From NCBI GenBank assembly GCA_029856375.1, contig JAHQWX010000008.1:1-15571 (forward strand): DNA of 15,571 nucleotides. Reading direction: 5' to 3'. A program made the position numbers and the translations under genes. Below the pieces are notes generated by a model. That model was given only the letters and a program-made list of their open reading frames with translations, was not told the origin of the DNA and did no database searches. The number at the start of each line of letters is the position of its first letter. Within the stretch, counting starts at the first letter, position 1. This document shows positions 124 through 15,559 of this stretch, piece after piece. Source of the DNA: Promethearchaeia archaeon. Lineage in GTDB: Archaea > Asgardarchaeota > Lokiarchaeia > Sigyniarchaeales > SOKP01.

Positions 124-217
124 TGCTTCTGGGGGGATTTGAACCCCCGTCAGGAGGGTGAGAGCCTCCGATGCTTAGTCATTTTTTTTAATTTTGACCG
201 GGCTACACTACAGAAGC
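124..217 (-). tRNA. tRNA-Glu (anticodon CUC) with D-loop insertion
   Basis: The minus strand folds into a full cloverleaf. The acceptor stem GCTTCTG/CAGAAGC is a perfect 7 bp with discriminator A at 124. The T arm is GGGGG-TTCAAAT-CCCCC and the anticodon arm is GGAGG-CTCTCAC-CCTCC, so the anticodon is CUC (Glu, codon GAG). The D arm starts GTGTAGCCCGG as in archaeal tRNA-Glu, but about 18-19 extra A-rich bases lie between GGTC and AAGCAT (about 177-195). The gene is therefore 94 nt instead of about 75. The ends of the insert pair (GGTCA with TGACT), so it forms its own hairpin. It is either an intron at a non-canonical D-loop site or an expanded D loop. CCA is not encoded, and five T residues follow directly and could terminate transcription. 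Identity is very sure; the nature of the insertion is inferred. Confidence 0.95.
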
Positions 218-6569: not shown

Positions 6570-6607
6570 AAAGTGATCTTCACCTCGAAATTAAATTTTG
6601 AACCTTT

Positions 6608-6886
6608 ATGTCAAACCTACTTTCTTACCACCCGACACCAATAAGCGTAAACCATTTGATTTACGACTGCTCCATCCCTGGCCTGGTCGATTTCGTCATT
6701 AATTGATTGAATTTCTCTTACAAGAAATACTTCAAAAATGATCTACCTAATTGGGCGAATGGGTCATGGAAATTTAAGATAAGCATAAAGGCCATTTTTA
6801 ATCCCTTAGATCAATTCTCAGTCCGTTATAGAGCGTTTACGGTCCACCCAGTAAAGGGCTTCAGGAAGTGCCCTAGGTTCCCACGA
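6608..6886 (-). ncRNA. Signal recognition particle RNA (7S)
   Basis: The minus strand holds the conserved SRP54-binding hairpin of domain IV at 6665-6690. It reads CAGG-CCA-GGGA-TGG-AGCAG, meaning the CAGG/AGCAG asymmetric loop, a 3-bp stem and a GNRA tetraloop. The 5' and 3' ends pair through GAACCTA (6874-6880) and TAGGTTT (6613-6619), which is helix 1 and typical of archaeal SRP RNA. An Alu-like domain follows the 5' end: one hairpin GGGC...GCCC and a second TTTAC...GTAAA, with C-rich and G-rich loops that could kiss. About 280 nt is a normal archaeal length. The RNA scaffolds SRP19 and SRP54 and targets ribosomes making membrane proteins. The 5' end is set by the TATA box about 25-30 bases upstream. 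Exact ends are uncertain by a few bases. Confidence 0.92.
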
Positions 6887-6908
6887 TCAATATTAATATT
6901 TTTTAAAC

Positions 6909-12859: not shown

Positions 12860-13549
12860 ATGGTGAGATTTACAGCAGATCATCGAGTTTATATAAAAAT
12901 TTTATATTGGGGAATGGGGGGCTCTGGTAAGACCACCATTGTAGATACATTATTTCGACTTACGAACGAACAGAATTTAGAGATAGAACCCTCTGGAAAT
13001 CTTACTAAAATCGCTATGGCGAGCGGCTCGACGCTTTATTTTGATAGAGGGATTTTTCAATCAAAAAAAACGAGAAAAGTGTTCTATCATGTATACACAG
13101 TTGCAGGACAAAGTAGATTTTCACCATTAAGAAAAAAGATTTATAAGGGTACCGATGGAGTAATATTTGTAGTAGATGCACAAACTCATCTTTTTGAAGA
13201 TAATATTGAATCTTTAAAAGAGTTAAAAAAAGTAGCAAAAGGTGATTTAATTAAAGAAACACCTATTCTCATTATGTTAAACAAGAAAGATCTGACAGAA
13301 ACTATTAATGGTAGCGAGTTTGAACAAATTTTAAGAGATGAAGGTTTATGGTACGATCCTCCTCATCGATTGGCTATTTGGAATCCAATTATTTACGAAT
13401 CATGTGCATTATATAATAAACAAAAAAATATATATCGCTCGTTTAACGAGTGCGCCAGAAGAACAGGTATATATCAAATTTATGGAAATGGAACTGCACC
13501 CGTTAACGACGATTTTTTGAAAAATGAAAAGAAAGTTAAGGAGTCATAG
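12860..13549 (+). CDS. MglA/Ras-superfamily small GTPase
   Basis: The 229-residue protein has the ordered GTPase motifs. G1 is WGMGGSGKTT (17-26), a possible G2 lies near T58 (GSTLYFD), G3 is TVAGQSRF (80-87), G4 is NKKDL (141-145) and G5 is ESCALY (180-185). The switch-II sequence TVAGQ, with Thr instead of the Asp of Ras (DTAGQ), and the segment KVFYHVYTVAGQ...YKGTDGVIFVVDAQ, are the MglA type. MglA sets polarity in bacteria, and MglA/Arf/Gtr-like GTPases are greatly expanded in Asgard archaea. There is an extra piece between G4 and G5 (EGLWYDPPHRLAIWNP) and a polar tail of about 30 residues without a lipidation motif. It has no co-directional neighbour close by. Partner GAP/GEF (for example roadblock proteins) are not in the window. 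Confidence 0.92.
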   Translation: MVRFTADHRVYIKILYWGMGGSGKTTIVDTLFRLTNEQNLEIEPSGNLTKIAMASGSTLYFDRGIFQSKKTRKVFYHVYTVAGQSRFSPLRKKIYKGTDGVIFVVDAQTHLFEDNIESLKELKKVAKGDLIKETPILIMLNKKDLTETINGSEFEQILRDEGLWYDPPHRLAIWNPIIYESCALYNKQKNIYRSFNECARRTGIYQIYGNGTAPVNDDFLKNEKKVKES

Positions 13550-13800: not shown

Positions 13801-15420
13801 ATGATGCAAAGGAATAAAAGCGAAATTAATGTTTCGGATATGATGGAAGAAATACGAGGAACATTAAATTTACCAGAAAAAGCTTATTTTTTTGATACTA
13901 CCCTTCGTGATGGAGAACAAACACCGGGTATTAGCTTTAGGCATGAAGAAAAATTATCAATTTCATATGCTCTGGATGAATTGGGTGTGGATGTAATTGA
14001 AGCAGGATTTCCTATCGTGTCTCAGGGAGATTTCGAAGCTTGTAGAGATATTTCGAAATTAGGTTTAGATATGGAAGTAATTGGACTAGCTCGAATGAAA
14101 AAATTGGATATTGATAAAGTAATTGAAGCTGATATGGATAGTATTCATGTATTTATCGCTACCTCTGATATTCATATGAAATCAAAATTGCAAATGACTC
14201 GGGAGCAAGTTTTAGAAGAAATCGCGGAAATGGTCTCATATGCGAAAAACAGTTATTCGACGATATTGTTCTCTGCTGAAGATGCAACACGATCAGACTT
14301 AGATTTCTTAATTAAAGCGAATAAAGTTGCTGTTGAAAATGGGGCTACAAGAGTAAATATTCCCGATACTGTGGGAACAATCACGCCCCAAGCTTTCGGA
14401 TATATTGTTAAAAATATTTATGAAGCGTTACCAAAAACAATTAGAATAGCAGCTCATTGTCATAATGATTTTGGATTAGCCGTTGCAAACACTATTGCTG
14501 GATTTGAAAATGGTGCTTCAGAAGCCCAAACAACAATAATGGGTTTAGGGGAACGTGCAGGAAATGCATCTTTTGAAGAGACTGCGATGTCTCTATACGC
14601 GTTATATCAAATCCCAATGAATATTAAAACTAGAAGAATCTTTCCAACGGCAAAATTAATTGAGAGCTATTGCGGCGGCAAAATTAAAATTGGTCGATTG
14701 CAACCTCTTATTGGACAGAATGCATTTGCTCACGAATCAGGCATTCATGCTCATGCAATGATAAAAGATGCTCGCGCATACGAACCAATTACGCCTGAGT
14801 TGATAGGAATTAAGCGTTCAGATAATGTTCAAGAAATTATACAACGCTCAATTAAGCTCGGAAAACATACTGGGGGGCATGCTTTGAAAGCAAAATTAGA
14901 AGATTTAGGAATAACAACAACAGATGAGCAATTTCAAAAAGTAATTCAACATGTAAAAAATTTCGGAGATAAAGGACACGAAGTTTTAGAAGAAGATTTC
15001 TTAGCTATTGTAAAAGATGTATTAGGAGAGCTTCCACCAGAAGAGCAATTTGTCATTCTTGAAGAATTAACCGTTTTAACAGGATCCGTAACGCCGACTT
15101 CTACAGTACGCTTAAAAATTAAAGATAATGGAAATTATGTCGAAAAATTGGCATCATCCACGGGTGTTGGCCCCGTTGATGCATCAGTTAAAGCAATTGT
15201 AAAATGCTTTGAACCTATGAGTAAGGTTAAACTATTAAATTACAATATTGACGCAGTTACAGGAGGAACTGAAGCATTAGGGCATGTTTCAATAGAATTA
15301 ATGGATATTGAAACAAATTTTATAGTAAATTCTAACGCAACACATGAAGATATAGTCATGAGCTCGGTATTAGCCTTATTAAAAGGACTTAATCGAGTTA
15401 TGAAATATAAAAATCAATGA
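13801..15420 (+). CDS. leuA: 2-isopropylmalate synthase (LeuA family)
   Basis: The 539-residue enzyme condenses acetyl-CoA with 2-oxoisovalerate in the first step of leucine synthesis. The catalytic TIM barrel shows DTTLRDGEQTPG (32-43), EAGFP (67-71), metal ligands H219/H221 in HCHND (219-223), GLGERAGNAS (248-257) and HESGIHAHA (311-319). A linker with GKHTGGHALKAKL follows. A C-terminal LeuA allosteric dimerisation domain (about 420-530, with STGVGPVDASVKA and VTGGTEALGH) points to leucine feedback. The related citramalate synthase and homocitrate synthase share the barrel. GFPIVSQGDFEA and the regulatory domain favour LeuA, but citramalate synthase is not fully excluded. The ATG at 13801 gives about 27 residues before the barrel; codon 2 is also ATG. 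A structured leader precedes it. It is the last complete CDS of the window. Confidence 0.92.
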   Translation: MMQRNKSEINVSDMMEEIRGTLNLPEKAYFFDTTLRDGEQTPGISFRHEEKLSISYALDELGVDVIEAGFPIVSQGDFEACRDISKLGLDMEVIGLARMKKLDIDKVIEADMDSIHVFIATSDIHMKSKLQMTREQVLEEIAEMVSYAKNSYSTILFSAEDATRSDLDFLIKANKVAVENGATRVNIPDTVGTITPQAFGYIVKNIYEALPKTIRIAAHCHNDFGLAVANTIAGFENGASEAQTTIMGLGERAGNASFEETAMSLYALYQIPMNIKTRRIFPTAKLIESYCGGKIKIGRLQPLIGQNAFAHESGIHAHAMIKDARAYEPITPELIGIKRSDNVQEIIQRSIKLGKHTGGHALKAKLEDLGITTTDEQFQKVIQHVKNFGDKGHEVLEEDFLAIVKDVLGELPPEEQFVILEELTVLTGSVTPTSTVRLKIKDNGNYVEKLASSTGVGPVDASVKAIVKCFEPMSKVKLLNYNIDAVTGGTEALGHVSIELMDIETNFIVNSNATHEDIVMSSVLALLKGLNRVMKYKNQ

Positions 15421-15482: not shown

Positions 15483-15559
15483 AATAATTCTCAGCGTAAC
15501 TATTAACGCATCACACAAGATTTAATGTCAGCCTTGTCTAGTCTCATCATAGAATTATT
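15483..15559 (-). ncRNA. Box C/D sRNA, double guide for 23S rRNA
   Basis: On the minus strand, in order: stem arm AATAATTC, box C ATGATGA (15544-15550), guide GACTAGACAAGG, box D' CTGA (15528-15531), 13-base spacer, box C' GTGATGC (15508-15514), guide GTTAATAGTTACG, box D CTGA (15491-15494), then stem arm GAATTATT. The arms give a perfect 8-bp terminal stem. Six T residues follow at once (15484-15479) and may terminate. Such RNAs, with L7Ae, Nop5 and fibrillarin, direct 2'-O-methylation of the base paired five nucleotides from D or D'. The D guide matches CGUAACUAU of 23S helix 69 (predicted target equivalent to E. coli A1913). The D' guide matches CCUUGUC of helix 71 (equivalent to G1945). 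It lies convergent to leuA; its promoter is outside the window. Confidence 0.9.

Follow-up and report, generated by a model that had tools for sequence, protein, structure and literature searches.

Box C/D sRNAs of archaea act together with a protein set consisting of L7Ae, Nop5, and fibrillarin, and the nucleotide that is methylated is the one that pairs with the guide nucleotide five positions upstream of the D or the D' box. In the archaeal set of Dennis et al. 2015 (PMC4644070), 262 of 489 sRNAs are predicted double guides with sites within 100 nt of each other, and helices 68, 69, and 71 of the 23S rRNA are named as hotspots in that paper and in PMC7994747, with predictions being dense around A1912. 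The seven species of this set, as they are given in PMC7994747, include no Asgard archaeon, and a search of open PMC papers returned none that appeared to describe Asgard C/D guides. In the comparison of eukaryotes in PMC8817022, snR63/U46 is listed for yeast Am2256 and human Am3739, and snR75 for yeast Gm2288. In Dictyostelium, both nucleotides, which are also 32 nt apart, are methylated by CD4/CD14, while the human column of this comparison holds the first site only and the Arabidopsis column the second site only. The yeast positions were related to E. coli positions by an offset of 343, which was taken from a table in PMC2584109 (1909=2252, 1915=2258, 1917=2260) and extended to 1945=2288 without an alignment. 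For Haloarcula, the same paper assigns Gm1950 (E. coli 1909) in helix 69 to an archaeal C/D sRNA candidate with homologous sequences in 25 archaeal genomes.

Archaea are already known to have double-guide sRNAs directed to helices 68-71, and the Asgard family described here adds to them. The DNA analyzed here, the window, is the whole stretch of 15,571 nt from contig JAHQWX010000008.1. Its minus strand most likely encodes, at 15483..15559, a box C/D double-guide sRNA in a Lokiarchaeon-like archaeon, as judged from boxes, terminal stem, a layout scan, and homologues. The preferred reading, to which we assign a probability of about 0.73, is that this sRNA would direct 2'-O-methylation of G1945 by its D' guide and of A1913 by its D guide, with possible help in the folding of the H69-H71 region. 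A1913 and G1945 are what we take to be the E. coli numbers of the two target sites. The boxes, the stem, the conservation, the complementarity, and the guide changes that follow the targets were observed directly in the window and its relatives. In its sequence, the RNA seems to be of an ordinary archaeal kind, apparently aimed at the same two nucleotides that are methylated in yeast. It resembles the archaeal double guides of Dennis et al. 2015 in its four boxes and in having two guides to rRNA sites within 100 nt. In contrast to yeast snR63 and snR75 and to Dictyostelium CD4 and CD14, which are given in PMC8817022 as two separate RNAs, the window would encode one double guide for the same two nucleotides. 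The Haloarcula candidate, compared by its description in PMC2584109, is likewise aimed at helix 69, but at a site 4 nt off and in another register.

All parts of the sRNA are located on the minus strand. The 5' arm AATAATTC (15559-15552) and the 3' arm GAATTATT (15490-15483) pair to an 8-bp terminal stem. The C box ATGATGA (15550-15544), which is identical in five of five genus members, is followed by the 12-nt D' guide GACTAGACAAGG (15543-15532) and the D' box CTGA (15531-15528). A 13-nt spacer (15515..15527), in which a 4-bp hairpin is possible in homologues outside the genus, leads to the C' box GTGATGC (15514-15508; GTGATGA in the congeners), the 13-nt D guide GTTAATAGTTACG (15507-15495), whose positions 1-12 are the same in all five genus members, and the D box CTGA (15494-15491). 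Nucleotide 15536, 5 nt upstream of D', would be opposite 23S G1945, and nucleotide 15499, 5 nt upstream of D, would be opposite A1913. A T6 run (15484-15479), a possible terminator overlapping the end of the stem, is kept in none of the four congeners. The four boxes, the 8-bp stem, and the T6 run that had been claimed in the initial annotation are thus all present at 15483-15559. A RUGAUGA C box and a CUGA D box closed by a terminal stem, together with internal C'/D' boxes and guide spacers of 12 and 13 nt (near 12 nt), agree with the make-up of archaeal C/D RNAs.

The layout was searched on both strands of the window as C box, 9-14 nt, D' box, 2-25 nt, C' box, 9-14 nt, D box, and a terminal stem of 5 bp or more; this layout, drawn up after the feature had been seen, gave a single match, which is the sRNA locus with its 8-bp stem. 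Applied to 100 shuffled windows with dinucleotides preserved, the same scan had no match. The fold of the sRNA is somewhat better than that of shuffled sequences (z -2.2; 6 of 200 equally good), and Rfam 15 returned no match to a C/D family at this locus up to E 5. The end of the window overlaps the start of contig C82 from the same bin by 99 bases, and C82 bears the same sRNA.

Homologues of the sRNA were found by BLAST in four of four congeners with 81-84% identity over 74 nt. The congeners keep the boxes, and the guides are kept while the D'-C' spacer diverges. A covariance model built from six copies, with which the best 60 candidates per genome were scored under stricter filters, detected the sRNA at E <= 0.002 in at least 38 of the 79 genomes of the order, and all 38 belong to the family of the window (65 genomes). 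Of these 38 places, 30 were aligned (alignment A2) and seven more were read by eye; the match in G057 was left out. A decaying pseudogene or a chance look-alike of a C/D RNA is very improbable in view of the empty shuffles, the guides kept beside a diverging spacer, and the family-wide model matches, although the partial bin, the weakened D guide, and the decay of the D' guide in genus g2 would be in line with it.

In A2, which was aligned by the covariance model itself, the D'-C' spacer could form a 4-bp hairpin with 84% of the cells paired and two-sided changes at two pairs. In both covariation score and number of paired cells, the alignment exceeds 500 of 500 shuffles, while pairs with two-sided change (as high in 245 of 500 shuffles) and additional pair types (as high in 132 of 500) are not exceptional. 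When the alignment was slid by +1, the score was 0.112 compared to 0.159; when it was slid by -3, there were more two-sided cells, 14 compared to 9. In G018 (L169, G018:C77:38572-38741), a second, partial tandem copy of the sRNA was observed, in which the spacer hairpin, the C' box, and the D half are kept and the 5' half is replaced.

Several pattern searches were also carried out. A first order-wide pattern gave two matches, both judged by eye to be chance; the true homologues escaped it owing to an overlong minimum gap and to a TATAG core that excludes the genus of the window. A second pattern matched 21 of 79 genomes, in four of which (G000, G008, G011, G034) the sRNA was recognized by eye. 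Counts of the bare TATAGTTACNYTGA pattern (94 of 227 phylum genomes) were dropped, since a control with the reversed pattern gave matches in many genomes, too. The phylum counts took in only loci that had been read by eye and have boxes, with the locus of G125 left out. C/D architecture was found in 11 of 30 phylum-pattern loci that were read and in 14 of 20 further chosen ones; the rest of the list was left unread except for places already found by the covariance model. A wider pattern scan of contigs was set aside as well: its 54 stretches comprise 25 from Lokiarchaeota/Lokiarchaeia and 29 of bacterial origin (mostly Nostoc), which were taken as chance and left unread.

The bin of the window has neither 23S nor 16S rRNA, and the targets were checked instead in the 23S rRNA of four congeners. 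In all four, this sequence is CCUUGUCUAGUAAG, with which the D' guide of the window forms 11 contiguous base pairs. The strand paired by the guide is CCUUGUCUAGU, and the predicted methyl site is G1945. This exceeds the 9 bp to rRNA set as a minimum for a guide, and nucleotide 5 is in a Watson-Crick pair. In run length, the site is the best over 16S and 23S of G001 and is equaled by none of 300 shuffled guides; it is also the best in energy, with -17.2 kcal/mol. The assignment of the D' guide to G1945, as it had been proposed from the window alone, is well borne out by these results. The lineage-specific CUAGU, which had been foretold from the D' guide only, is present in the 23S rRNA of the congeners; at this place, other genera of the family have CUGGU and other families have CGUAU, CGUGU, CGGAU, CGGAC, CGGGU, or CAGAU. 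The D' guides of the congeners themselves form 9 bp and differ from the window guide at positions 1-2, with positions 3-11 being identical.

Inspection by eye showed that the two-guide layout extends to more distant families, namely to 11 of 12 g33 genomes (one was unread), to four of four g40 and four of four g46 genomes, and to G020 and G029. As read from the compared sequences, changes in the D' guide follow changes in the target across families. The typed set consists of 20 genomes with both sequences, from which G057 and the bacterial-type 23S rRNAs of G020:C197 and G058 were left out. All four genomes with CUUGCC in the 23S rRNA have GGCAAG in the guide, and of the 16 genomes with CUUGUC, ten have GACAA. 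Pairing at eight or more of the D' guide positions 3-12 was found in 16 of the 20 genomes; three genomes of g2 reach six and G020 reaches seven. In all 16 fitting genomes, the nucleotide opposite G1945 is Watson-Crick paired. The H71 sequence had no match in any g33 genome and, hence, the D' target of g33 is a prediction.

Watson-Crick pairing opposite G1945 in 16 of 16 fitting genomes is what a working methylation guide needs, and it argues against the possibility that the sRNA is mainly a folding chaperone that would join the H69 and H71 strands during 23S assembly, with methylation being secondary or absent at one site. A chaperone role for double-guide sRNAs was proposed by Dennis et al. 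2015 (PMC4644070), where a mismatch at the methyl site is accepted. The distance of just 32 nt between the two sites and the mini-intron-like inserts of about 30 nt between them in five genomes (see below) would suit such a role, which we consider improbable as the main function; chaperoning and methylation are compatible, and one does not exclude the other.

Judging from the guide sequences, D' function is not universal, even within the family. G018, G043, and G050 have damaged D' guides. In genus g2 (L108-L110, L112, L113), the D' guide has diverged (AACTAACATAC and similar) and has no fit to H71, with six of ten positions paired in three of three genomes with both sequences; the D guide of this genus is retained. 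G027 and G022 combine the helix 69 guide with different D' guides. Helix 69 itself varies over the phylum, and some genomes have GUAACUCU or GUAACUGU. Contig G027:C746 (L160) has two C/D-like RNAs, one on each strand and separated by about 230 nt, which share the helix 69 D guide but not the D' guide.

The D guide had been assigned to A1913 in the initial annotation. This assignment stands insofar as helix 69 is the site of best energy for the D guide over 16S and 23S of G001 (-10.2 to -10.5 kcal/mol; -8.9 kcal/mol without the bulge described below) and as the guides of homologues from other genera fit this helix 69 site over 10-13 nt. It is weakened by the pairing within the genus itself: the congeners have AGUAACUAUAACUC as helix 69, and the D guide of the window forms just 8 contiguous base pairs, at positions 2-9, with GUAACUAU. 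At least 9-10 bp had been expected at each site; in the 23S rRNA of the congeners, this was found for the D' guide with its 11 bp, but not for the contiguous run of the D guide. PMC4644070 loosens its 9-bp rule for a few double guides. The shortfall is associated with an extra A at position 10 of the D guide, and if this nucleotide is bulged, three further pairs can form (11 in total). The extra A is present in five of five genus copies, in contrast to none of the 25 other aligned copies. In all 25 aligned homologues outside the genus, the D box is preceded by TTATAGTTAC, which fits helix 69 AGUAACUAUAA over at least 10 nt, and the guide of G011 forms 13 bp with helix 69 in the 23S rRNA of G001.

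Of 400 shuffled guides, 69 gave an 8-bp run spanning position 5 somewhere in the 23S rRNA; when the run had to lie no more than 100 nt from the D' site, 71 of 5000 did (1.4%). The 23S rRNA of G001 and G004 is GGGAGUAACUAUAACUCUCUUAAGGUAGCCAAACGCCUUGUCUAGUAAG, in which the target sites are 32 nt apart; G002 and G003 have the same sequence plus a 31-nt insert after CUCUUAA, and the distance in their genes is 31 nt longer. Provided that the D guide targets H69, both guides fall within 100 nt of one rRNA, as is the case for double guides. A second A1913 guide, which was sought in the genus with TATAGTTACNYTGA, was found in none of five genomes. By sequence, the sRNA has one well-supported guide (D') and one weakened guide (D). 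Because the D guide is weakened by the one extra A in the genus of the window, methylation of A1913 could be partial there. The description of A1913 as a notable position for a methyl group holds, but the equivalent nucleotide of yeast is already known to be methylated.

The same extra A has to be considered together with a site in the 16S rRNA. The D guide might have been re-aimed or doubled in this genus to 16S CUUAACUAUUAGU, with D' still directed to G1945. The site would be in the helix 21 region at about E. coli 620 (counted from the 515 site), with the methyl group on the second A of CUUAA. Here, D guide positions 3-11 form nine Watson-Crick pairs and positions 12-13 two GU pairs, and the site is identical in four of four congeners. 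The UAUUAG form of the 16S rRNA is private to the genus (four of the 14 matched, among 65 family genomes), and the same holds for the extra A of the guide. For positions 3-12 alone, the 16S site is favored with -7.4 kcal/mol compared to -5.0 kcal/mol for H69; for positions 2-11, the two are equal (-7.7 for H69 compared to -7.5), while the whole guide favors H69 with -10.2 compared to -7.9 kcal/mol. A 16S score this high is also attained by 17 of 300 shuffled guides; by eye, the site forms one arm of a hairpin in the rRNA, and the aligned guides of other genera (25 copies) fit H69. Re-aiming or double aiming to the 16S rRNA is live, yet less likely, and we regard it as distinctly unlikely compared with A1913 as the D target.

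Under the preferred reading of methylation at G1945 and A1913, we infer that the sRNA would be transcribed and assembled into an RNP, with L7Ae, Nop5, and fibrillarin bound at its two box pairs as in other archaea. Pairing of the D' guide with its 23S strand would lead to 2'-O-methylation of G1945, and pairing of the D guide with the loop of helix 69 would lead to 2'-O-methylation of A1913, 32 nt upstream of G1945. Simultaneous binding of two sites so close to each other may also aid the folding of the H69-H71 interface region.

The sRNA would represent a new rRNA-methylation guide family in the Lokiarchaeota phylum, with targets checked in the 23S rRNA of relatives and guides tracking their targets. 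Because yeast uses two separate snoRNAs to methylate the two target nucleotides, a lineage near the eukaryotes offers a testable case for the origin of single-site snoRNAs from double-guide sRNAs. That one double-guide sRNA for the Am1913/Gm1945 pair was ancestral in Asgard archaea and a forerunner of the snR63/U46 and snR75 activities is a speculative and rather unlikely proposal; if true, the methyl pair at the subunit interface would predate the eukaryotes, and one RNA would later have been split into two. The drift of the D guide specific to the genus of the window may represent a guide that is changing its target.

Inserts of 29-31 nt were observed in the 23S core of five family genomes (G002, G003, G016, G037, G018). 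They are located after CUCUUAA, at about E. coli 1927, in L007, L013, L234, and L237, and after GUAACUAU, at about 1917, in L014/L270. By eye, they are hairpin-like stretches with four different sequences, one of which is common to G002 and G003. From their sequences, they look like mini-introns. In all five genomes, the insert sits between the two sRNA target sites, and in the gene of G018, helix 69 is split by the insert after GUAACUAU. In L248, L257, L258, and L260, the 23S genes upstream of AAGGUAGCC end in GAUAUAGUCC..GUUGCU-like stretches, which we take to resemble the 3' ends of group I introns at the same site.

With regard to its genomic setting, the sRNA shares a contig with the 16S gene in 13 of 14 genomes with a matched 16S stretch and lies some 2.3-5.1 kb upstream of the start of the 16S gene, which was estimated from the offset in G001. 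Outside the genus, the sRNA and the 16S gene are encoded on the same strand in ten of ten genomes, whereas in three of three congeners they are on opposite strands. The window encodes an Arf/Ras-like small GTPase on the plus strand (12860..13549; Pfam Arf, E 6.6e-16), and a GTPase gene with a similar N-terminus, a matter of sequence resemblance only, adjoins the sRNA in all eight regions of relatives that were read. The GTPase gene is on the strand opposite to the sRNA in the window and in four of four congeners, and on the same strand in G011, G049, G062, and G078. Between GTPase and sRNA, the window has a 2-isopropylmalate/homocitrate-synthase-like (leuA-like) gene on the plus strand (13801..15420; HMGL-like and LeuA_dimer), which is missing at that place in four of four congeners. 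Further RNA genes of the window at 1531-1842, 6570-6893, and 124-217 (minus strand) are, in this order, an archaeal RNase P RNA above its cut-off, an SRP RNA with E 1.7e-14 and under the gathering score, and a tRNA gene that contains an insert when compared with the model.
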